Assembly: GCF_001005315.1 (NCBI RefSeq)
Contig: NZ_LBMG01000042.1
Span: forward strand, 1 to 57,736
Length of the DNA stretch: 57,736 bases
Source of the DNA: Kordia jejudonensis
GTDB lineage: Bacteria > Bacteroidota > Bacteroidia > Flavobacteriales > Flavobacteriaceae
Direction of reading: 5' to 3'
The position numbers and the translations under genes were made by a program. The notes beneath the pieces are model-generated. The model saw nothing but the letters and a program-made list of their open reading frames with translations. It was not told the origin of the DNA and did not search any database. Shown piece after piece: positions 20,899 to 44,020 of the stretch. Within the stretch, counting starts at the first letter, position 1; every line of letters starts with the position of its first letter.

Positions 20899-20944
20899 TA
20901 TATAAAAATAAGTGTTTATTTAAGTTAGTTTAGTGACTTAGTTT

Positions 20945-20980
20945 AAAAGCTGCCTTTTGTTGAATTAGGGCAGCTTTTTT
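20945..20980 (+). terminator. Terminator after the LamG lipoprotein
   Basis: Ten-base arms (20945-20954 and 20969-20978) with GCTGCC at the core, followed by a T run. Confidence 0.85.
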
Positions 20981-21035
20981 TAGTAAAACTCAATACTAAA
21001 AATTGAGTTTTACTAATCCCGTTGAAGAACGGGAT
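20980..21035. repeat. Two consecutive perfect hairpins
   Basis: A 15-bp perfect stem with a 7-base loop (20980-20994 with 21002-21016) is followed directly by an 8-bp stem with a GAAG loop (21016-21023 with 21028-21035). The first contains CAATACT, the same heptad word seen before the LytTR regulator gene. It lies just beyond a normal terminator, so it is not needed for termination. Confidence 0.6.
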
Positions 21036-21146
21036 CTAATACTAGTTTTGCAGTAACTATAATTCATATATTCCCTTTTTTAAGAAGTTTTGATATTGAA
21101 AAGCCTTAAGAGCGAATCAAAGTAAGTTACTTTAATATGCTGATGT

Positions 21147-28390: not shown

Positions 28391-28456
28391 AACTAACCAG
28401 TACTAACTATTTTATAAGTTGCTAGTTTCAATCAAAAACTAGACTTTATGATTACA

Positions 28457-34327: not shown

Positions 34328-35080
34328 TTATTTTCGATGAATACTACTCAAAATTTCCATGACTTCTACTTTTTTACGAACAGAAACAGGAACCGTACTT
34401 TTATCTTTTAACAATAAATAACCGCCATCTGTTTTTATAAAGGCTTTGATGAATTGCAGATTGACCAAATGACTTTGGTGTACACGCAAAAATTGATAAC
34501 TTTTCAACATATCTGAAAAGTATTTGAGTGTTTTTGTTACAAAAATCTTCTGTCCATCTTGTAAATAGAAAATAGTATTGTTACTATCCGATTCGCAACG
34601 AATAATTTCATCCAAACTCACAATAATAATCTTATCTAAGGTATGAAGTGATATTTTGTTTGGCTTTTCATTTGGGGCCGCTAAGGTATCTTTTAAAATA
34701 TCCAAACGTTCTTTGTTCGGGTGAATTTGACTTTTCGCTTTTTCAATTGCTAACGATAATTCTTCTTCCGCATACGGTTTTAATACATAGTCGATTGCGG
34801 CAAATTTAAAAGCTCTGATGGCGAATTCATCACTTGCAGTCACAAAGATAATTTTTGAAGTCAAATTTGGGAAAATTTCCAATACATCAAACCCAGATCC
34901 GTCGCCCAACATAATGTCAAGAAATAAAATATCAGGTTGTTGCTTGCGTAACAGTTTTGCAGTTTCAACCACACTTGAAGCAGTTCCAATAATGTTCAAT
35001 TCAGGATGCAAGCGTTCAATGTCGCTTTTTAGCATATGTAACGCAGCAGGAATATCGTCAACAATTACAGTAGTAAGCAT
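34328..35080 (-). CDS. LytTR-family response regulator
   Basis: 250 residues from the ATG at 35080 (MLTTVIVDDIPAALHMLKSD). The frame is open further up to 35203, but that part is a heptad repeat. The receiver domain at 1-120 has the acidic pair at 8-9, phosphoacceptor Asp55 in ILFLDIML and the Lys in YVLKPYAEEE. A LytTR DNA-binding domain follows at about 145-248 (LHTLDKIIIVSLDEIIRCES; FLRVHQSHLVN). It forms a pair with the histidine kinase upstream. Six CAATACT-type heptads stand just before the start codon. Confidence 0.93.
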   Translation of the reverse strand: MLTTVIVDDIPAALHMLKSDIERLHPELNIIGTASSVVETAKLLRKQQPDILFLDIMLGDGSGFDVLEIFPNLTSKIIFVTASDEFAIRAFKFAAIDYVLKPYAEEELSLAIEKAKSQIHPNKERLDILKDTLAAPNEKPNKISLHTLDKIIIVSLDEIIRCESDSNNTIFYLQDGQKIFVTKTLKYFSDMLKSYQFLRVHQSHLVNLQFIKAFIKTDGGYLLLKDKSTVPVSVRKKVEVMEILSSIHRK

Positions 35081-35085
35081 GTTTC

Positions 35086-35127
35086 TTAGTATTGAGGTTT
35101 TAGTATTTAGTATTGAGTATTGAGATT
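35086..35127 (-). repeat. Six CAATACT-type heptads before the regulator start codon
   Basis: Six consecutive 7-base units, three or four of them CAATACT or AAATACT, end six bases before the ATG at 35080. They occupy the usual ribosome-binding region. Confidence 0.65.
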
Positions 35128-35166
35128 TGTCTCGATAACACTCTTCATAATAATTAGACTTAAATA

Positions 35167-35215
35167 AATCTAAAAGCGGTCTAACTTCCAACAGCGACAG
35201 CAATCTTTCATCTAA
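35167..35215 (-). repeat. Seven degenerate heptads after the kinase stop
   Basis: Starting at the base after the kinase stop and read on the minus strand, the first heptad is TTAGATG (unit of the 17660 array). The fourth is CTGTTGG (the unit of the 24168 array on its other strand), and the seventh is TTAGATT. So one locus has both expanded words in the same phase. Confidence 0.6.
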
Positions 35216-38200
35216 TTAATAATCTGTTTCCAACGGAATTTTAAATGAAATTTTCGTTCCAGCTAAGGTATGATCTTTTTTAGACATATCTTCAATTTTT
35301 AGCGTGTTGCGTCCTGCCAAGGATTCAATTCGCTCTTTGGTTACTTGCAACGCCATCGACTGATGATCGGTACTTTTTTTGTTTTGTTGCGATTGATTGA
35401 TGCCTATGCCGTTATCCGTAATCGTCGCATACAAAAAATGATTGTCCGTTTTAAAATGCACCTTCAATTCGCCAGGTCGTTGCAATGGCATAATTCCGTG
35501 TCGAATAGCATTTTCTACAAATGGTTGAATCAACATTGGAGGAATGAGTACTTCTTCCGGATCTAACTCAGAAGTGACATCAATTGTATATGAAAAATCT
35601 TTGCTAGCCATCAAACGTTCCACTTCAATATAGTTGGAAAGCGTTTTGATTTCTTGCGAAAGCGAAATGCTATCTTTTCTAGAATTTGTCAAGGTTTCAC
35701 GCAATAAAACAGCAAAAGTATTAATGGTATTGTCCATTTTTGGAATATCGTTTCTACTCATGCCTTTGATGCCATTCAAGACATTGAAAATAAAATGCGG
35801 ATTCATTTGCAAACGCAATGCTTTTTGTTCTAGCGAAAGCAAATGATTTTCTAATTGTAAACGTTCACGAATTGCTTTGTTTTTAGCTTTGATCCGTTTG
35901 ATATAGCTGTAAATGATGAGAATGATAATTAGCCCAAGTATTGTCCAACCAAGATTTTTAAACCATGTTTTTTTGTACAATGGTTGAATGACGTGCAGTT
36001 TAAAACCAATGGAATCACTTTCCAGCCAATCTTTGTTACGTGCTTGCGCCATAAAATCATGATCTCCGTAGGTTAAACCGCCAATGGTAATTTTACTTTC
36101 CTTTGTCCACGAACTCCAATCTTCCTCGTCAAATTTATACCGATATACGATGGCTTCAGGATTGTCTAAATCTACAGAGCGAAATTGAAATTTTATATTA
36201 TTTTGATCTTCAGGAAGTTGCAATCTTTTGTCAGTATTTGTCCATTGCTGCAAATCGATAGAATCTAAACTTTTTGAATCAACTTCGATGTCTTCAAAAT
36301 GTATTTTCGGTTTTAAAAGTTGCTGCTCCGAAGTAGAAGGTTGGTATTTTGTAAGTCCGTAAATTGTACCAAACCAAAGATTTCCTTCTGTATCTTTTGT
36401 AGTAGCATTATGGCAAGTTTCGATTCCTAAAAAACCATCATTTCTTCCGTAGTGAATAACGTTGGTAATTTCATTTTTCTTGTTTAATGTAATTTGATCT
36501 ACGCCACCTTCACTTCCTGCCCAAAGTGTTCCATTATCGTCAAAAATGAGTTGATAGATATTGTCTGAGTAGAGGTCTTTTGTTCCTTGTAATTGGTTGA
36601 ACTTTAGTTTAGAAGATAGTTCCGAATACCAAATTCCTTTTCCAAACGTGCCAATATACATGTCATAATTGTGAAAACGTATGGTTCCGATCGTGACTTC
36701 GTTTCCAGTGACATCTTTTGGCATTAGGTGCGTAACTTTATCTTTTTTGATGTATCCTAAATGTCCTTTGTTGGTACAATACCACATACGACCAGTTTCA
36801 TCACGAGCCAAATCGCGAATGGACAAATCTTTGATGCCTTCTTGTACACCAAATGTTTTGATATTGTAAATTTGTTTTTTGTCAAAATCGTACTGAAATC
36901 GTACAATTCCATTGGAATATGTTGCCGCCCAAATTTGTGAACCAACTATTTTTATATTGCGAATCCAATCGGAAGGTAAACCGTCTTTTGTAGTGATACT
37001 TGCACTGTAAATATCTTCAACTTTGAGCGTTTCATAGGTAATTTCATCTACGAAAGTGCTATCGTACACAATAGAATCACGAATCTTTTTTTGATAAATG
37101 TAGATGCCTTTTCCTTCGCTTCCTGCCCAAATTCGTCCTGCGGTATCGTTTGTAAGTGTTTTTACTTTTACCGTCAAATACTCACTTGCGGCAACTTCTT
37201 GATGAATTCCTGTAGAATCAATGGTCATTAAACCCGATTCAGACGTAGAAAGCCACAATTTTTTGTCATAGCTGTGTACCGCGTAAATACGATTGGCTGT
37301 CAATCCATTATCTTTTGTGTAATGTCTAAAATTATTTTTTTCAAACTTAAATAATCCGCCACCTGACGAACCAATCCAAATATTGTTTTGTCGGTCTTTG
37401 TATACTTCACGAATGTTATAGACAGACAAACCATTTCGTTTTGTAATTGATTTTTCAGGCAAATTGTCCGTTAAGTTGATTCGTTTGATGCCTGCATTTG
37501 TCGTATTAATCCATAATTCAGCATCGTTAATAACCGTGATGCTATTGATTTTTTTGACTTCAGAAACTATTTGAAAACCTTTTTCTTTAGGTGTAAACGC
37601 GAAGACTCCATCCGTAAAACTTGCCGCAATTACTTTTTGCTTATATTTTGCCAACGATTTGAAATCGCCTTCGAGAACTTTTGTAAAGGTTGCCGAATTT
37701 TCCAAACGATCCGTTTTCCATAAGCCTTTTCGCGAAGCAATCCAAAATGTAGTTCCATCAAATAATACATCATTTATTTGAGTTGCATTTAAGATAGCGT
37801 TGCAGTTTAGTGGTTTTGCGCCTTCATTGGGTTTGTAGTAGTACAATCCTTTTTTTGTCGCTAAATAGGTGTTGTTTTCCGTAGTTTCAATATGAAAAAT
37901 TGTAGGTGTTGCATATTTTTTGAATGTATTTTTTACAAGTGTAGAAAGTCCTTGACGTGTTCCAATAAGCAATGTGTCGTTTGAAAACTGTAATGCATGA
38001 ATGTAATTGGAAGCCAACCCATTTTTTTCTTTCCAATTGGTAAATGAAAGTCCATCAAAACGTACAATTCCGCCACCTTGTGTACCAATCCATAAATACC
38101 CAAAATCATCTTGAACAATAGCATTTACTTGCGATTGCGGCAAACCATCTTTTAAGGTATATGCGCGCAATTGATTGTTTTGTGCTGAGGAAATACAGCA

Positions 38201-38251
38201 ATAAAAAAGTATGAAAGCGAGTAGGAGATATGTATTAGAAATAAATTTCAT
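35216..38251 (-). CDS. Propeller-type sensor histidine kinase (Reg_prop, Y_Y_Y, LytS-like kinase)
   Basis: 1011 residues. A signal peptide (MKFISNTYLLLAFILFYCC) leads into about 14 two-component propeller repeats (YLWIGTQGGGIVRFDG, NIWIGSSGGGLFKFE, RIWAGSEGKGIYIY and others) to about residue 690. A Y_Y_Y domain, one membrane helix near 768-788 and a short coiled coil follow. The LytS-type kinase has His819 in QMNPHFIFNVLN and an ATPase domain with PFVENAIRHG and DNGIGI. There is no fused receiver or AraC domain, unlike many hybrid kinases. Periplasmic propellers of this kind often sense oligosaccharides. One base separates it from the SH3-domain gene upstream, so they are co-transcribed. Confidence 0.94.
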   Translation of the reverse strand: MKFISNTYLLLAFILFYCCISSAQNNQLRAYTLKDGLPQSQVNAIVQDDFGYLWIGTQGGGIVRFDGLSFTNWKEKNGLASNYIHALQFSNDTLLIGTRQGLSTLVKNTFKKYATPTIFHIETTENNTYLATKKGLYYYKPNEGAKPLNCNAILNATQINDVLFDGTTFWIASRKGLWKTDRLENSATFTKVLEGDFKSLAKYKQKVIAASFTDGVFAFTPKEKGFQIVSEVKKINSITVINDAELWINTTNAGIKRINLTDNLPEKSITKRNGLSVYNIREVYKDRQNNIWIGSSGGGLFKFEKNNFRHYTKDNGLTANRIYAVHSYDKKLWLSTSESGLMTIDSTGIHQEVAASEYLTVKVKTLTNDTAGRIWAGSEGKGIYIYQKKIRDSIVYDSTFVDEITYETLKVEDIYSASITTKDGLPSDWIRNIKIVGSQIWAATYSNGIVRFQYDFDKKQIYNIKTFGVQEGIKDLSIRDLARDETGRMWYCTNKGHLGYIKKDKVTHLMPKDVTGNEVTIGTIRFHNYDMYIGTFGKGIWYSELSSKLKFNQLQGTKDLYSDNIYQLIFDDNGTLWAGSEGGVDQITLNKKNEITNVIHYGRNDGFLGIETCHNATTKDTEGNLWFGTIYGLTKYQPSTSEQQLLKPKIHFEDIEVDSKSLDSIDLQQWTNTDKRLQLPEDQNNIKFQFRSVDLDNPEAIVYRYKFDEEDWSSWTKESKITIGGLTYGDHDFMAQARNKDWLESDSIGFKLHVIQPLYKKTWFKNLGWTILGLIIILIIYSYIKRIKAKNKAIRERLQLENHLLSLEQKALRLQMNPHFIFNVLNGIKGMSRNDIPKMDNTINTFAVLLRETLTNSRKDSISLSQEIKTLSNYIEVERLMASKDFSYTIDVTSELDPEEVLIPPMLIQPFVENAIRHGIMPLQRPGELKVHFKTDNHFLYATITDNGIGINQSQQNKKSTDHQSMALQVTKERIESLAGRNTLKIEDMSKKDHTLAGTKISFKIPLETDY

Positions 38252-38252
38252 C

Positions 38253-39101
38253 TTAGTTTTCAGGCGTTCTTTTTGCGAATTTTTTTGAAAATTCTGGCAC
38301 TAGCTTTTCGCCATTCCATTCAAATATACGTTTCATATGTTTGGTTTCGTACCATTTTTTTTCTTCATCAATCAATTCTTCTTCTTCTTTTGTAAAAATA
38401 ATGATCGGTTGTCCATTTTCTTCATTGAAAGTATAGGTGAATTTTTCTATTAAACCATAAACGCCACCATCGCCAATTAATGATAAATCTGCAATTTTAA
38501 CCAATTGATAGTTTTCCTTCAAAAATAATACCGTTGTGCCATTTTCTGCGCCGCAAGAATCGCCAAAGTAGTTTATGTTTACAATTTGAATTATATTTTC
38601 TAAGTCGTACGACGAGTCAAAACTAATTCCGATGTTATTATCTAATGGTTCAATTGTAGTTTCTGTATATGCTTTTGTAGTAGCATTAAAAATAGTTCTG
38701 ATGTGTAGTTTTCCAAATGCATCTTCTCCTTCTGTTTTATGTAAATAAAAATGTTGATCGCCACTTTTTTTGTGCGCATTTGCGATGAACTGTCCAGCAA
38801 TAAAACCAGTTTTATCATTGTGTTTTACCTCATACCAAGCCGTTTTCGCTGTTGCAGTTTCTAAAAATTGATCCGTTTTTTTTAAAATAGTCACTTCATC
38901 GCCAATACGCAATATCGTAATAACTTCAGAAGTGGTATTTGGTGCAGCTCTTAATTTTACATTATCGCCAAAAAGAGCATATGTTGTGTTGACTCTAAAA
39001 CTTTCTGCTACATAGGTAATTTCTTTTTCCTGAGCGTACGTATGCGACAAGCAGCAAATAAAAAATAGCGTTAGAAGGATTTTGGATTTTAAGAAATGCA
39101 T
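38253..39101 (-). CDS. Secreted SH3-domain protein
   Basis: 282 residues from the ATG at 39101 (MHFLKSKILLTLFFICCLSH, signal peptide). A bacterial SH3 domain at about 35-95 has DNVKLRAAPNTTSEVITIL and WYEVKHNDKTGFIAG, typical of cell-wall or peptide binding. The C-terminal half has no recognised fold. It is the first gene of the SH3/kinase/regulator transcript, so it may assist or modulate the kinase sensor. The -7 box ends four bases before the ATG, which suggests a leaderless mRNA. Confidence 0.82.
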   Translation of the reverse strand: MHFLKSKILLTLFFICCLSHTYAQEKEITYVAESFRVNTTYALFGDNVKLRAAPNTTSEVITILRIGDEVTILKKTDQFLETATAKTAWYEVKHNDKTGFIAGQFIANAHKKSGDQHFYLHKTEGEDAFGKLHIRTIFNATTKAYTETTIEPLDNNIGISFDSSYDLENIIQIVNINYFGDSCGAENGTTVLFLKENYQLVKIADLSLIGDGGVYGLIEKFTYTFNEENGQPIIIFTKEEEELIDEEKKWYETKHMKRIFEWNGEKLVPEFSKKFAKRTPEN

Positions 39102-39105
39102 GACA

Positions 39106-39113
39106 CAAATATA
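39106..39113 (-). promoter_or_regulatory. Promoter -7 box of the SH3/kinase/regulator operon
   Basis: TATATTTG is a perfect TAnnTTTG on the minus strand, and only four bases separate it from the ATG at 39101. The transcript would start at or next to the ATG. Confidence 0.5.
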
Positions 39114-39145
39114 GTTTAAAATTGATAGGTTTAGAAGTAAACACA

Positions 39146-39186
39146 ATCGAGAGTACTTATTCCGTAATTAAGCATCTCGACTGCGT
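39146..39186. repeat. Degenerate copy of a dispersed CTCGACTGCG element
   Basis: ATCGAGAG and, about 20 bases on, ATCTCGACTGCG match the two ends of the element at 41387-41460, but with a shorter middle. Confidence 0.4.
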
Positions 39187-39270
39187 TTATAAAGATTTAA
39201 AAATGTTATGATTAGAGGAGTGAAAGACTACTCATTTTCAAATCATCAAATTTTCAAATTGATACATTTA

Positions 39271-40320
39271 CTACAATTGTGTGTAATAGCGTTGATTGTC
39301 AAATTCTGTGCGAACATACGATAAAGGATTATTGTGTTGCATCATCGGTTTCATTACGCAAACGGCAGTAGATTTTCCTTTGATGATTATTTTTTGACCA
39401 ACTTTGACAGCTTTCCATCTAAATTTTTCTAAAGGAATTCCAGTGTCTTTTACTTTTTGCGCGTATACTTCATTGTCTTCAATCCAATCCATAATTTCGT
39501 TTGCATCTGCTAATGAAGGCACATCTTCATCATCTGAGAATTGTACTTCCCAACGAATTGGAATGTTGAATTTGTATGCAAATGGCTTTCCAGGTTCCGT
39601 TTCTTCTTTCGTTCTGATGGCATCTAACCAGTGAATGTCTTCGTAAGGATAGTTACGGATAAATTGCTTTGATAAATCTACATTTCCTGGCGATTGTGCT
39701 GTTGGATAGTATCCGTAAAATGCTTTGGCTAAGAAGTGTTTTTGAAATTGCCCGTTGAAAACCGTTGCATGTGGAGTGGCAAATACTTTTGGCTGATAGT
39801 TTGCTGTAAACGTTTGTTTCAATATTTGCAATAATGCTTTGTTTTTGCCAAGTTCAGAAGTGTGAAACACAAGTTTGCTGTTTTCTGCCAATACATTTTC
39901 AAGTTTAGGAAGTGTACTTTCTTTTAAACAGTTTAGTAATGATTCTTGTGATAAAGGTACGCCATGAATAGTTGTTTCTAATGAAAGTCCTTGTTTTGCG
40001 TTTCCTTTGTTTACAATATGAATTTCCTTGTAATCTTGTGCATTGTGATTTTTATTTAGCCAAGCTATGATTTCTTGAAGTGAAAACGCATCATCAACAA
40101 TGGTATAATTTTGTGCTTCAAAATGCTTTTTTGCATCTTTATAATACGTTTGTGAACCTTTATCGTATCCTGCAATAAATACAACTGCTTGCTGTGCGAC
40201 TACTTTTTCGCTTGCTTCCAACGAAGCGATATCTTTCGTTTCTTCTTTTGGGGAACATGCAAATACGAGTGCTAATACAAGTCCCATGAATCCTGTGAAT
40301 CTTAATGTTTTTGTGTTCAT
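39271..40320 (-). CDS. Lipoprotein of unknown function
   Basis: 349 residues. The lipoprotein signal ends LALVFAC (Cys22). The N-terminal half is alpha/beta: VVFIAGYDKG, EIHIVNKGN and LVFHTSELGKNKALL could be strands of a Rossmann-like or caspase-like fold with His but no convincing Cys-His pair. The C-terminal half has PIRWEVQFSDDEDVPSLADA. Not recognised. It is preceded by a long non-coding region with strong secondary structure (40388-40519), which may be its leader. Confidence 0.7.
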   Translation of the reverse strand: MNTKTLRFTGFMGLVLALVFACSPKEETKDIASLEASEKVVAQQAVVFIAGYDKGSQTYYKDAKKHFEAQNYTIVDDAFSLQEIIAWLNKNHNAQDYKEIHIVNKGNAKQGLSLETTIHGVPLSQESLLNCLKESTLPKLENVLAENSKLVFHTSELGKNKALLQILKQTFTANYQPKVFATPHATVFNGQFQKHFLAKAFYGYYPTAQSPGNVDLSKQFIRNYPYEDIHWLDAIRTKEETEPGKPFAYKFNIPIRWEVQFSDDEDVPSLADANEIMDWIEDNEVYAQKVKDTGIPLEKFRWKAVKVGQKIIIKGKSTAVCVMKPMMQHNNPLSYVRTEFDNQRYYTQL

Positions 40321-40387
40321 AGTGTTGTGATTTTAAAATTATACGTTGTGTGTTTTTTGTGTTGTTATATTTTGTTGATTTAGTGTA

Positions 40388-40519
40388 AAAATCAGCCTGA
40401 ATACGTTCAATCTGCTTTCGGATTGAAACGACTATCAGCATTGCATTTTGAAAACCCACTCTTCAATACATTTTGATAGTCACTTTTGACAGCCATCAAA
40501 AGCTATTCAAGCTGATTTT
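40388..40519 (-). ncRNA. Four-way-junction structured element, possible leader RNA or mobile DNA hairpin
   Basis: The outer stem (40388-40403 with 40504-40519) pairs at 15 of 16 positions; the odd pair is G-T on the minus strand. Inside it, with almost no unpaired bases between, lie three hairpins: 40404-40430 (about 11 bp, one bulge), 40431-40480 (7-bp base and 5-bp tip), and 40483-40502 (7 bp, 6-base loop). It lies 68 bases upstream of the lipoprotein ATG at 40320. Strand cannot be settled: wobble pairs favour neither clearly. I do not recognise it as a known RNA family. Confidence 0.5.
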
Positions 40520-40615
40520 ACCCAACTAACCAACCTAATTTGTTTAATTTGATCTTGACTTAATCTTATTTAAGTTTTTCATATCCATTTTACTTAAATG
40601 ATTCAAATTCAGTTT

Positions 40616-40811
40616 CTATTTTTCATTTTCTTTGTTTGCCCAAAGAAAACGAAACAAAAGAAAGGGCACTTTTAGTTTATGTCGTCTACATTTTAAATTA
40701 AGGTATTCATGAATGCACAGCATTTCCAGAGGTGTTTTTAGCTGAAAAAGCTAAAACCGCAATTCTTTCTCTAAATTTTTTCCAAGGCTTCAAAAATTCT
40801 TAACGAGAAAG
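40616..40811 (-). pseudogene. Decayed small reading frame with nested hairpins
   Basis: On the minus strand one frame reads from about 40789 to a TAG at 40616 with a single internal stop. The intact part is 35 residues from the ATG at 40723 (MLCIHEYLNLKCRRHKLKV, then a Phe/Leu-rich end). Inverted repeats lie at 40626-40649 (9-bp arms), 40734-40757 (8-9 bp) and 40765-40811 (two nested 7-bp stems). It may be a fragment of a gene or a repeat element instead. Function unknown. Confidence 0.35.
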
Positions 40812-40873
40812 TATTTCTACACTGCGGAAAAGAAAAAAACTTACTATTTTCAACATTGAGCCAATCTTCATAG

Positions 40874-41089
40874 TTATCTTTTTAATGTAATAGACGCTGC
40901 TTGCTGTATTGGCAATGCAATGTGTTGCAATTGCATGCGTTTTGCTAATGTTGGACTTGAAATCCATCTGCCTTCTTGATATAAAGCAACCGCGTTTACT
41001 TTTCCTTTTGCATCAAACTTTAAGTTGATTTGCGAATAGATATTCAAATAGTTTTGAATCATTTTTGTTGCTGTTATATCGTACCACAT
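40874..41089 (-). CDS. Small unknown protein or gene fragment
   Basis: 71 residues (MWYDITATKMIQNYLNIYSQ at the start). The segment INLKFDAKGKVNAVALYQEG resembles the C-terminal DUF3471-like beta domain often found at the end of serine hydrolases, which would make this a leftover tail of a lost gene. It has an ATG preceded by A-rich sequence. No terminator follows. Real translation is uncertain. Confidence 0.35.
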   Translation of the reverse strand: MWYDITATKMIQNYLNIYSQINLKFDAKGKVNAVALYQEGRWISSPTLAKRMQLQHIALPIQQAASITLKR

Positions 41090-41240
41090 TTGTTATTTCT
41101 TTTTATTGTTTGTAATTTTTTAGATGCGATTAAGATGACTTTGTTTCTTAATTACATTTCAAATGTAGTAGCAACTTCACGGTTTTTTGGAGTGCTTTTA
41201 GAATTCGTTGGTGGTAAACTAGAATTCGTTTTAAAACATA

Positions 41241-41275
41241 AAAAAAGCAGTAATGAATTGTATTTCATTACTGCT
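41241..41275 (-). terminator. Terminator of the HerA/lipoprotein/cupin operon
   Basis: A 12-bp perfect stem (41246-41257 with 41264-41275) with a 6-base loop and a T run on the minus strand. It lies about 240 bases after the cupin stop. Confidence 0.75.
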
Positions 41276-41386
41276 GTTAACTTGAGTTTAATGTAACTTT
41301 TTATAGTATGATTTTGTTTTTAAAAATCTTAGTGGATAATGTCAAATCGAGCATTATTGAAATCGAAAAATTTTTTGATTGAAAAT

Positions 41387-41460
41387 ACGTAGCGAAGCTA
41401 TCGAGATTCAATGCACACAATAGATTTCCTATTTTTCTCGACTGCGCTCGAAATGACAGT
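41387..41460. repeat. Dispersed element with CTCGACTGCGCTCGA end
   Basis: One end is CGTAGCGAAGCTATCGAG and the other CTCGACTGCGCTCGAAATG. The same two modules occur, inverted, at 53638-53706. The ends partly pair with one another (TCGAGATTC/TTCTCGA). Confidence 0.6.
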
Positions 41461-41517
41461 GTGTATTTTTTATACTAAACTATGTTTTAATGATTTATTT
41501 AAATATATATATTTCTA

Positions 41518-41889
41518 CTATTCTTCTTCTCGGTGAACTAAATCCATTGAGAATGCAGGCAAACAAATTGCCAAATATTCGCAATCATCTTCAAACGGAT
41601 TGGAATATTGAACACGCGTGTTTTTTTCTATTTTGATTGATTGTCCCGCTTCTAATACGATTGTTTCACCTTCAATGATGAATTGCTTTTTTCCTTTGAT
41701 GATATAAGTAAATTCATCAAATTCAGGAGTTTGAAACGGTTCTTTCCATTTCGGAGGCGCAATCATATGTGCAATGCTTACATTTGAATTTCCGTCTGTA
41801 GCATTTCCAAAATGCTCTTCAATTAGTTTTCCGTCTGTGGTTGGAACTACAAAAGGTGCTTTTTGAATGTGGTATTTTTTAGTGCTCAT
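41518..41889 (-). CDS. Cupin-domain protein
   Basis: 123 residues of a single beta-barrel cupin. PEFDEFTYIIKGKKQFIIEG is cupin motif 1 with its Glu but few His. LEAGQSIKIEKNTRVQYSNP is motif 2. The metal site looks reduced. Such small cupins bind sugars or organic acids or act as simple enzymes. It overlaps the preceding lipoprotein gene by 11 bases and is the last gene of the HerA operon. Confidence 0.82.
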   Translation of the reverse strand: MSTKKYHIQKAPFVVPTTDGKLIEEHFGNATDGNSNVSIAHMIAPPKWKEPFQTPEFDEFTYIIKGKKQFIIEGETIVLEAGQSIKIEKNTRVQYSNPFEDDCEYLAICLPAFSMDLVHREEE

Positions 41890-42475
41890 CTTTCGTTTCG
41901 TTTTCAGTGTTGGTTTCCTCTACATGTTCCCAATTGATCATGAAGTATTTTATTTTGGCTGCATCAGGAATTTGAACAGCTTCAATATTCAAACTTGGAT
42001 TGTAACGCAAATCTTCAGGAAGTTCTTTCTTATCAATAGTAAAATATTCATTGCTATCTACAATAACCACAATGGTATTCATGGTATTGTAAATGTTTTT
42101 GATAGTATAGTTTTCACGAATATCCTTAAAGGTACTTTTTGTAGAAATGCCTTTTGCCGTTTTAAAACGATCATCATGAATTTGAATTGTTTTAATTTTT
42201 TCGTTTGTATCGTGTTGTTGTCTTGGCGTAATAGTTAATAATTGTTTTCCACCTTTTTCATAAATCAAATATTTATCATCGCCAGCTTGCACATAATCGC
42301 CTTCGCCAATACGCTTTACCAAGGAATCATTTGCATAGATAGAATCCAATTGTTGTACCGTAATTTCTTTGTGTAATTTTCCAATTTGATCTTTCTGAAT
42401 CAAAAATGGATCTTCTTTTTTTGCACAACTAGCCAAACTAATCATGATAATTCCGAGGAATAAAAACTTCTTCAT
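41879..42475 (-). CDS. Small lipoprotein of unknown function
   Basis: 198 residues. The lipoprotein signal ends MISLASC (Cys17). The sequence has DSIYANDSLVKRIGEGDYVQ, KYLIYEKGGKQLLTITP and TFKDIRENYTIKNIYNTMN. This reads like a protein with an internal repeat sensing or binding domain, but no family was recognised. It stands between the HerA-like ATPase gene (27-base gap) and the cupin gene (11-base overlap). Confidence 0.7.
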   Translation of the reverse strand: MKKFLFLGIIMISLASCAKKEDPFLIQKDQIGKLHKEITVQQLDSIYANDSLVKRIGEGDYVQAGDDKYLIYEKGGKQLLTITPRQQHDTNEKIKTIQIHDDRFKTAKGISTKSTFKDIRENYTIKNIYNTMNTIVVIVDSNEYFTIDKKELPEDLRYNPSLNIEAVQIPDAAKIKYFMINWEHVEETNTENETKDEH

Positions 42476-42502
42476 TTATTTATTTTAAATTTTACTTTTT
42501 TA

Positions 42503-44020
42503 TTATTTGATCACTTTTTTAAGAACTCCTAAAACACTTCGAAGGAATGTAACACTTGTGAGTAATTTTACAATCGGATTTTGGCGTGTACTTTTTCGGC
42601 TTGAGCTTCTTGAAGATTTCGCTTCAGCTTTTGCTTCTTTTTCCTTCTCATGAATAGCTTCTGCCTTTTTAATCTTCTCATTTAGCATTTCATACGCGCT
42701 TTCACGATCGATTTCCTCGTTGTATTTTTTTATCAATTTCGAGTTGTCCGTGAGCTCTTTTAATTCAGCAGGTGTCAATACATCCATACGACTCATTGGC
42801 GCACGCAACATGGTAGCAGCCAGTGGAGTTGGGCGTCCTTTTTCATCTAAAGCAGAAACTAAGGCTTCTCCAATTCCTAATGAAGTTAGTACTTCCGCAG
42901 TATCGTAATATTCAGAGTCTGGATAGTTTTCAGCTGTTAGTTTAATGGCTTTTCTATCTTTTGCGGTAAATGCACGTAATGCATGTTGTATTTTTAAACC
43001 TAATTGTCCTAAAACCGCATCAGGTACATCTGTTGGATTTTGTGTTACGAAATACAATCCAATTCCTTTGGAACGAATTAGTTTTACGATGCTTTCTATT
43101 TGGTTTAATAATGCTTTGGAAGCTTCTTTGAAAATTAAATGCGCTTCGTCAATAAATAGTACCAATTCTGGTCGTCCGCTGTCGCCTTGCTCTGGAAATG
43201 TTTCATAAATTTCAGCTAATAAACTCAGCATGAAGGTTGAAAATAGTTTTGGCTTATCTTGAATATCTGTCAAGCGAATAATGTTGATATATCCTCTTCC
43301 GTCTTTATCAATTCGAGTTAAATCTTCAACATCAAAGGAAGTTTCTCCAAAAAACAAATCGGCTCCTTGTTGTTCCAATTCTACTATTTTACGCAAAATT
43401 GCACCTGTGGAAGCGCTTGAAATACGTCCGTACATTTCTTTAAATTCCTCTTTTCCTTCGCCTGTTGCGTATTGCAATACTTTTTTAAAGTCTTTCAAAT
43501 CGAGCAAAGGCATTTTGTTGTCATCACAGTATTTAAATACAACTGCGACAATTCCTGATTGCGTTTCGGTCAAATCTAAAATTCGAGAAAGAAGTACAGG
43601 TCCAAATTCGGAAACGGTGGCACGCAAGCGCACTCCATCTTGATCGGATAATGAAAGTATTTCTACAGGAAAGTTATTGGCTTCAAATGGAAACCCAATT
43701 TTTGTGTGGCGTTCGTCAATTTTTGGATGTCCAGCACTTGGTTGTGCTATTCCACTTAAATCACCTTTAAGATCCATTAATAATACTGGAATTCCTTTGT
43801 CAGATAAGTTTTCAGCAAGAATTTGCAAGGTTTTTGTTTTTCCTGTTCCCGTTGCTCCCGCAATTAAACCATGACGATTCAGCGTTTTTAAAGGAACTTT
43901 TACATAGGCTTCCGTGACCGTTTCTCCTTCATGCATTGCAGCGCCCATGGTAATATAATCGCCTTTGGTTGCATATCCTTTATCAATATGATCTTTAAAA
44001 TTTTCCATCGAATTATTCAT
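42503..44020 (-). CDS. HerA-like ATPase (DUF853 family)
   Basis: 505 residues from the ATG at 44020; ATG at 44008 is also possible. The open frame up to 44101 would start almost inside the terminator of the previous gene. Walker A is GATGTGKT (about residue 55-62), and Walker B is ELVLFIDEAHL. LLMDLKGDLSGIAQPS and RLTDIQDKPKLFSTFMLSLL are family features. The C-terminus is a Lys/Glu/Ala-rich helix, then a basic Ser/Arg linker and a hydrophobic tail. Members are hexameric DNA-translocating ATPases of the HerA/FtsK kind. Here there is no NurA nuclease beside it, so a defence or repair role is not supported. Confidence 0.88.
   Translation of the reverse strand: MNNSMENFKDHIDKGYATKGDYITMGAAMHEGETVTEAYVKVPLKTLNRHGLIAGATGTGKTKTLQILAENLSDKGIPVLLMDLKGDLSGIAQPSAGHPKIDERHTKIGFPFEANNFPVEILSLSDQDGVRLRATVSEFGPVLLSRILDLTETQSGIVAVVFKYCDDNKMPLLDLKDFKKVLQYATGEGKEEFKEMYGRISSASTGAILRKIVELEQQGADLFFGETSFDVEDLTRIDKDGRGYINIIRLTDIQDKPKLFSTFMLSLLAEIYETFPEQGDSGRPELVLFIDEAHLIFKEASKALLNQIESIVKLIRSKGIGLYFVTQNPTDVPDAVLGQLGLKIQHALRAFTAKDRKAIKLTAENYPDSEYYDTAEVLTSLGIGEALVSALDEKGRPTPLAATMLRAPMSRMDVLTPAELKELTDNSKLIKKYNEEIDRESAYEMLNEKIKKAEAIHEKEKEAKAEAKSSRSSSRKSTRQNPIVKLLTSVTFLRSVLGVLKKVIK

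Follow-up and report, generated by a model that had tools for sequence, protein, structure and literature searches.

Identification of a branched RNA element in front of a lipoprotein gene

What is the function of a long, branched inverted repeat lying directly in front of a lipoprotein gene of Kordia jejudonensis? In a 57,736-nucleotide stretch of contig NZ_LBMG01000042.1 (the whole stretch that was analysed, hereafter termed the window), a preliminary description made from the letters alone had noticed at positions 40388–40519 an outer stem enclosing three almost contiguous hairpins. It considered this fold hard to obtain by chance and proposed a cis-acting leader of the lipoprotein gene, a small RNA gene or the hairpin of a small mobile element.

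The four-way junction was recovered at these coordinates, within an element that occupies positions 40382–40536 of the minus strand. Its outer stem P1, placed by folding and by an alignment of 11 Kordia genomes, consists of a 5' arm with an A-tract (40505–40519) and a 3' arm that includes a T-run (40388–40402, GCTGATTTTT), and encloses 102 nt in the window. Inside P1 the hairpins P2 (40482–40503), P3 (40430–40481) and P4 (40405–40428, placed by the alignment and by single folds) are near-contiguous. The GGCTG of the P2 loop region is invariant and the apical stretch of the P3 arm, TATTGAAGAGTGG, is conserved with one A in genome G009. The T-run is located within the P1 stem and reads four T then C in three of the 11 Kordia genomes, five T then A in seven and eight T in one. 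A conserved unpaired 5' tail, AGGTTGGTTAGTTGGG (40521–40536), outside the coordinates given initially, also belongs to the element. The spacer between the element and the lipoprotein ATG (40321–40387) measures 67 nt and shows a mean pairwise identity of 0.41. No open frame runs through the element, each frame containing at least one stop in all 11 genomes.

The minus strand of positions 40380–40530 folds with a minimum free energy of -52.5 kcal/mol (z -6.6) and none of 200 dinucleotide shuffles folded as well, in agreement with the view that such a structure is hard to obtain by chance. Folding of both strands had been recommended, and the plus strand also folds strongly (z -7.1) because an inverted repeat must fold on both strands. 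When 4608 segments of 150 nt were scanned on both strands, the element ranked second once the energies had been corrected for GC content and overlapping segments merged (z -4.9). The first rank (-5.8) belongs to 20901–21050 of the plus strand, a fold that comprises a terminator-like hairpin, then a 14-bp inverted repeat and then another hairpin.

Compensatory changes support an RNA transcribed in the sense of the lipoprotein gene

The 11-row Kordia alignment displays compensatory changes in all four helices P1 to P4. Pairing is retained in 93.2% of its 528 cells (48 pairs in 11 rows), and in 96.4% of the cells of the P1 helix. Changes on both sides affect 13 of the 48 pairs and 26 cells, compared to shuffled means of 6.2 and 8.9 respectively (0/500 shuffles for each), and control alignments that had been slid gave 1–5 pairs with both-side changes. 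The number of further pair types showed no excess (28 against 25.1 in shuffles, 52 of 500 shuffles reaching 28). By parsimony on a lipoprotein tree, we counted 15 events of double change, 15 that affect a single side and 25 that break a pair. The compensating changes that the preliminary description had advised seeking in relatives are thus present, and the stems are kept. Double-change pairs were found in P1 (three), P2 (two), the base of P3 (four), apical P3 (one of nine pairs) and P4 (three), with no double change in the apical helix formed by columns 72–75 with 100–103. The RNAalifold consensus did not contain P4, which was put in manually before its changes were counted. We think that the MAFFT alignment probably misplaces a gap in the P4 of G002 and G010, so that these positions count as broken pairs and part of the 25 breaking events would be due to the alignment; both genomes keep P4 in their own single-sequence folds.

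Two observations concern the strand. On the 39 RNAalifold pairs, G-U cells number 30 and A-C cells 6 out of 429, in a count made on the structure derived from the minus (sense) strand and with ten of the G-U cells coming from one pair. Additionally, the sense strand is more stable than the antisense strand in 10 of the 11 Kordia genomes. The mean pairwise identity of the element is 0.80, that of the promoter stretch 0.87, of a neighbouring 71-codon open reading frame (the 71-aa ORF) 0.83, and of the lipoprotein gene 0.79 (0.61 at its third codon positions).

The element is a single-copy feature of Kordia

A covariance model detected the full element once in each of the 11 genomes of the marine genus Kordia, always in the same location. 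The cultured species Kordia algicida OT-1 is a carrier. The remaining 12 rows of this search comprised seven on the opposite strand at the same place and five with E-values of 0.02–0.94 (L107–L111). As judged by eye, L108 is a tailed hairpin with a T-run, L109 and L110 are hairpins with T-runs, and L107, which does not resemble the element, was rejected; L111 scored 11.7 bits. No further copy was found in the K. jejudonensis genome, the other 35 of 36 matches (E up to 10) being fragments of 14–33 bases with E-values of 0.1 or worse. The suggested comparison with the Flavo-1 motif gave no match: no Rfam 15 family, Flavo-1 included, had a match overlapping the element with an E-value of 10 or lower (positions 38000–43000), and none reached its gathering threshold in the whole window.

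A search of 397 family genomes with model R1 gave matches with E-values of 0.1 or lower in 18 genomes, three of them Kordia. Thirteen of the 15 non-Kordia matches are 55–65 nt long and are considered below together with the tail; the other two, L050 (139 nt) and L051 (168 nt), do not resemble the element by eye and were rejected as homologues. Among 296 genomes of the order searched with model R2, the only match beside the K. jejudonensis genome itself was in G555 (E 1.7e-4). It is without the base of P3, many of its pairs are non-standard and its neighbour is an NtrC-type gene; we judged it a chance match, though the E-value alone would not dismiss it. No convincing homologue beyond Kordia was therefore found in these 397 family and 296 order genomes, in searches filtered so strictly that very distant relatives may be missed. 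An exact-pattern scan of genome contigs returned 14 stretches, of which eight from Kordia score as the element (one incomplete) and the other six do not score at E 1; none of eight stretches from viral contigs scores. The element is absent from 12 loci of lipoprotein homologues searched with 1.5 kb flanks (ten of other genera and two Kordia paralogues), where the unfiltered matches, with E-values of 0.004 and worse, were not accepted as homologous.

The good folding of both strands would suit a feature acting at the DNA level, such as a cruciform, a recombination site or the relic of a small mobile element. We nevertheless hold this to be very improbable, given the single full copy at one and the same place in all 11 Kordia genomes, on which ground the mobile-element hairpin originally proposed is also rejected, the preponderance of G-U over A-C cells and the greater stability of the sense strand. 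Furthermore, blastn detected no match in plasmids and a single 57-base match (E 0.5) in phages.

The element lies inside a probable LytTR-controlled operon

The gene order is the same in 11 of 11 Kordia genomes: two ACGAATTCTA boxes, TACATTTG, the 71-aa ORF, the element and the lipoprotein gene. In the window, where all these features are on the minus strand, the boxes are found at 41220–41229 (box 1, a candidate LytTR site) and 41199–41208 (box 2), 21 bp apart from start to start in all 11 genomes. They are followed at a fixed spacing from box 2, likewise in all 11, by TACATTTG (41160–41167), which fits the Bacteroidetes -7 consensus TAnnTTTG as given in PMC6847099. A single box with one mismatch allowed shows no excess in the window over shuffles; the weight rests on the pair of boxes and its conservation. 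Of 299 family genomes, 13 contain paired boxes, and 11 of these belong to other genera; in the six of these 11 that were read, the boxes precede a VWA gene, a lipoprotein gene or both, and TAnnTTTG is spaced as in Kordia, 41 bp from start to start. The unit is separated from the preceding gene by a terminator-like hairpin immediately ahead of the boxes (41246–41275, minus strand).

The 71-aa ORF (40874–41089) encodes a protein that shares 65–82% identity with its counterparts in the other ten Kordia genomes, belongs to no Pfam or NCBIfam family and resembles the C-terminal end of the VWA-domain proteins of about 720 codons found in such operons. The lipoprotein gene (39271–40320, 349 aa, ATG at 40320) likewise has no Pfam or NCBIfam family. 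Further along the minus strand are a LytS-like sensor kinase with propeller and His_kinase domain matches (35216–38251) and, as the next gene, a LytTR response regulator (34328–35203); ten of the 11 Kordia genomes have a LytS-type kinase in this place, the stretch of G003 stopping at a contig end. As far as the sequence can suggest, this neighbouring LytS/LytTR pair probably drives the operon, and the paired boxes would be bound by the LytTR protein. A paralogous operon on contig C186 of the same genome (L157, L159) carries paired boxes with no TAnnTTTG behind them, a VWA-domain protein and a lipoprotein paralogue, and has no RNA element. The lipoprotein paralogue of G002 has no box pair.

The element follows the 71-aa ORF closely in most genomes: from the stop codon to the GGTT[A/G]GTTGGG part of the tail, the gap is 1–20 nt in nine of 11, 172 nt in G001 and 342 nt in K. 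jejudonensis (G000). In the latter, a dispersed repeat is inserted between the ORF and the element (40540–40872, minus strand); this repeat gave another 72 partial matches in the genome, a number of which are fragments of a single copy. The distance from the element to the lipoprotein ATG stays at 63–111 nt in all 11 genomes, also where insertions separate the element from the 71-aa ORF.

The tail motif precedes terminator-like hairpins in Flavobacteriaceae

The 13 short R1 matches in other genera are hairpins with T-runs, 11 of which are preceded by the full or near-full tail of the element (by eye). Since the covariance model contains the tail, these weak matches only suggested a link to terminators, for which separate counts of the motif are the tests. 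We observed, as a new finding, that hairpins resembling intrinsic terminators tend to follow the tail GGTTGGTTAGTT in Flavobacteriaceae. Among the matches listed, motif and A-tract were followed by a hairpin with a T-run at 27 of 30 loci, compared to 131 of 1123 control A-tracts. When the A-tract was not demanded, a hairpin followed 29 of 41 places (30 loci among the matches listed) compared to 50 of 600 random places, several of the 41 being Kordia tandem copies and hence not independent. The 12 misses include L226:2940, where a hairpin visible by eye was missed by the detector. The detector allowed loops of up to 30 nt and found loops of 5–25 nt, and the distance from the stop codon was 7–51 nt in nine of the 29 motif hairpins with a distance. 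GGTTGGTTAGTT with AAAA within 6 nt was present in 73 of 149 family genomes, compared to 17 of 149 for the reversed control. The motif without the A-tract was only moderately enriched over the reversed control in 40 relatives, with 117 matches against 42 and 27 genomes against 20.

Within Kordia, GTTGGTTAGTT-N0-6-AAAA is found in nine of 11 elements (L001, L009–L013, L016–L018), and the tails of G004 and G006 differ. The K. jejudonensis genome has five motif copies besides the element; three of the four that were read precede terminator-like hairpins and one, L208, does not. A copy at position 28398 of the window (minus strand) has the shorter form GGTTAGTT before a terminator-like hairpin. The GGTTGGTTAGTT lead-in often comes after a T-run, as at L197:487, L197:1182 and L198:971 (minus strand). 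Some Kordia genomes contain tandem units of about 202–208 bp, each ending in the motif and a terminator-like hairpin (the L206 array at 1501–2010, L207, L213); these are possibly tandem small genes or RNAs and have no Rfam match at gathering. A literature search with the tail as a string returned only papers with unrelated titles.

A partial or conditional terminator with a folded loop is the favoured reading

We tentatively favour, at a little short of an even chance, the reading that the element is an intercistronic partial or conditional terminator, that is an attenuator, whose loop contains a structured domain and which forms part of the mRNA of an operon probably under LytTR control. The order of its parts is that of the motif terminators, namely stop codon, tail, A-tract, stem and T-run, and only the loop differs. 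RNA polymerase would start at the promoter formed by the boxes and TACATTTG, transcribe the 71-aa ORF and then, on the same transcript, meet a terminator module of Flavobacteriaceae type made of the GGUUGGUUAGUU tail, the A-tract, the P1 stem and the U-tract. The 102-nt P2–P4 domain replacing the terminator loop would fold first and bring the P1 arms together. If P1 closed in time, some polymerases would stop at the U-tract, at about position 40388 of the window, and the remaining ones would read through into the lipoprotein gene. No TAnnTTTG lies between the element and the lipoprotein ATG in any of the 11 Kordia genomes, and the operon promoter provides the only one common to all 11; G004 and G006 have one extra inside the element. 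Since no conserved promoter lies in the spacer before the lipoprotein gene and all 11 genomes retain this gene, termination, if any, would have to be partial or conditional. The element would thereby set the ratio of lipoprotein mRNA to 71-aa mRNA, a ratio that binding or remodelling of P2–P4 could regulate, the invariant loops of the folded domain being a possible site for a ligand or protein.

Several features argue against a terminator. The T-run is modest, with four or five T in 10 of 11 Kordia genomes, the loop of 102 nt far exceeds the loops of 5–25 nt of the motif hairpins, and two genomes, G004 and G006, have an altered tail. A terminator scan of the window that allowed loops of 3–8 nt does not list the element. 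Closeness to the 71-aa ORF is not required, as indicated by the intact elements of G000 and G001 at 342 and 172 nt from its stop codon. No antiterminator pairing was identified in single-sequence folds, and the sequence data would be compatible with a fixed partial terminator as well as with a regulated one. In a more specific version, which we regard as doubtful, the element would be an attenuator with a sensor nested in the terminator: a ligand or protein bound by the P2–P4 four-way junction would join or part the P1 arms, and this would act on top of the LytTR promoter of the same mRNA.

The cis-acting leader originally proposed is retained in so far as the covariation, the strand and the G-U cells support a cis RNA in the sense of the lipoprotein gene. 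Its position close behind the 71-aa ORF in nine of 11 genomes, together with the terminator-like tail and outer stem, makes it more of a terminator or attenuator than an ordinary 5' leader. A leader or a processing or stability element of the lipoprotein mRNA (a 5' end protector, a protein-binding site or a riboswitch) with no role in termination would agree with the steady distance to the lipoprotein ATG, even in the genomes with insertions after the 71-aa ORF, and with invariant loop stretches that resemble a binding site. However, the tail is a pre-terminator motif and its pairing with the start region is no better than in shuffles in 11 of 11 genomes (89–287 of 300 as good). With no such pairing and a poorly conserved spacer, no translational expression platform is visible, and we rate this explanation as somewhat unlikely.

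A small RNA acting in trans, either as an independent gene or as the 3' end of the 71-aa transcript and ending at the P1 T-run, would account for a stable structure present once per genome with a T-run at its end, and both the G/U-rich unpaired tail and the conserved loops could serve as seeds. We nonetheless find it unlikely, the small RNA gene of the preliminary description having lost ground since no conserved promoter of the TAnnTTTG type lies directly upstream of the element in the 11 Kordia genomes. In addition, the tail is accounted for as a terminator signal, and neither a second match to its 15 nt nor one to their complement (at most one mismatch) was found in the K. jejudonensis genome, which excludes only long pairing.

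The element adds a new RNA family supported by covariation to a little-studied phylum, with K. algicida OT-1 as a cultured carrier, and the short sequence leading into terminator-like hairpins across Flavobacteriaceae is useful for transcript annotation. It raises the question of whether a terminator stem split by a folded domain of 100 nt still stops polymerase, and whether that domain is a sensor. On the terminator reading, the amount of the downstream lipoprotein may be set by the element acting as an adjustable stop signal.

Comparison with known systems

Hairpins of mobile elements and dispersed repeats occur in several copies or at varying sites, which is not the case here. Flavo-1 is a structured RNA of Flavobacteriia; our element is likewise a structured RNA of this class but shows no covariance match to it. 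As in riboswitches, there is a conserved aptamer-like junction with covarying helices, and P1 could be a terminator; recurrence before several related genes is not seen, with one locus per genome, and single-sequence folds reveal neither a competing pairing nor masking of the start site.

In terminator-type attenuators and riboswitches the structured domain usually lies upstream of the terminator. The element shares with them a structured RNA and a terminator ahead of a possibly controlled gene, and differs in that its domain is nested in the terminator loop, that no antiterminator was identified and that it is confined to one genus and one locus. PMC9723704 reports structured 5' RNAs in a flavobacterium, together with partial termination and indications of leader-peptide attenuation. 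The closest likeness in the order of parts is to the GGTTGGTTAGTT terminator-like hairpins of Flavobacteriaceae, with which the element has in common the 12-nt lead-in, the A-tract, the stem and the T-run, whereas its loop of 102 nt contains three helices, its T-run is shorter and it lies inside a probable operon. It also possesses the stem, T-run and 5' A-tract of an intrinsic (Rho-independent) terminator but not the short hairpin loop, and because of its 102-nt loop we file it as a variant possibly working like an intrinsic terminator rather than as an ordinary member of that class.
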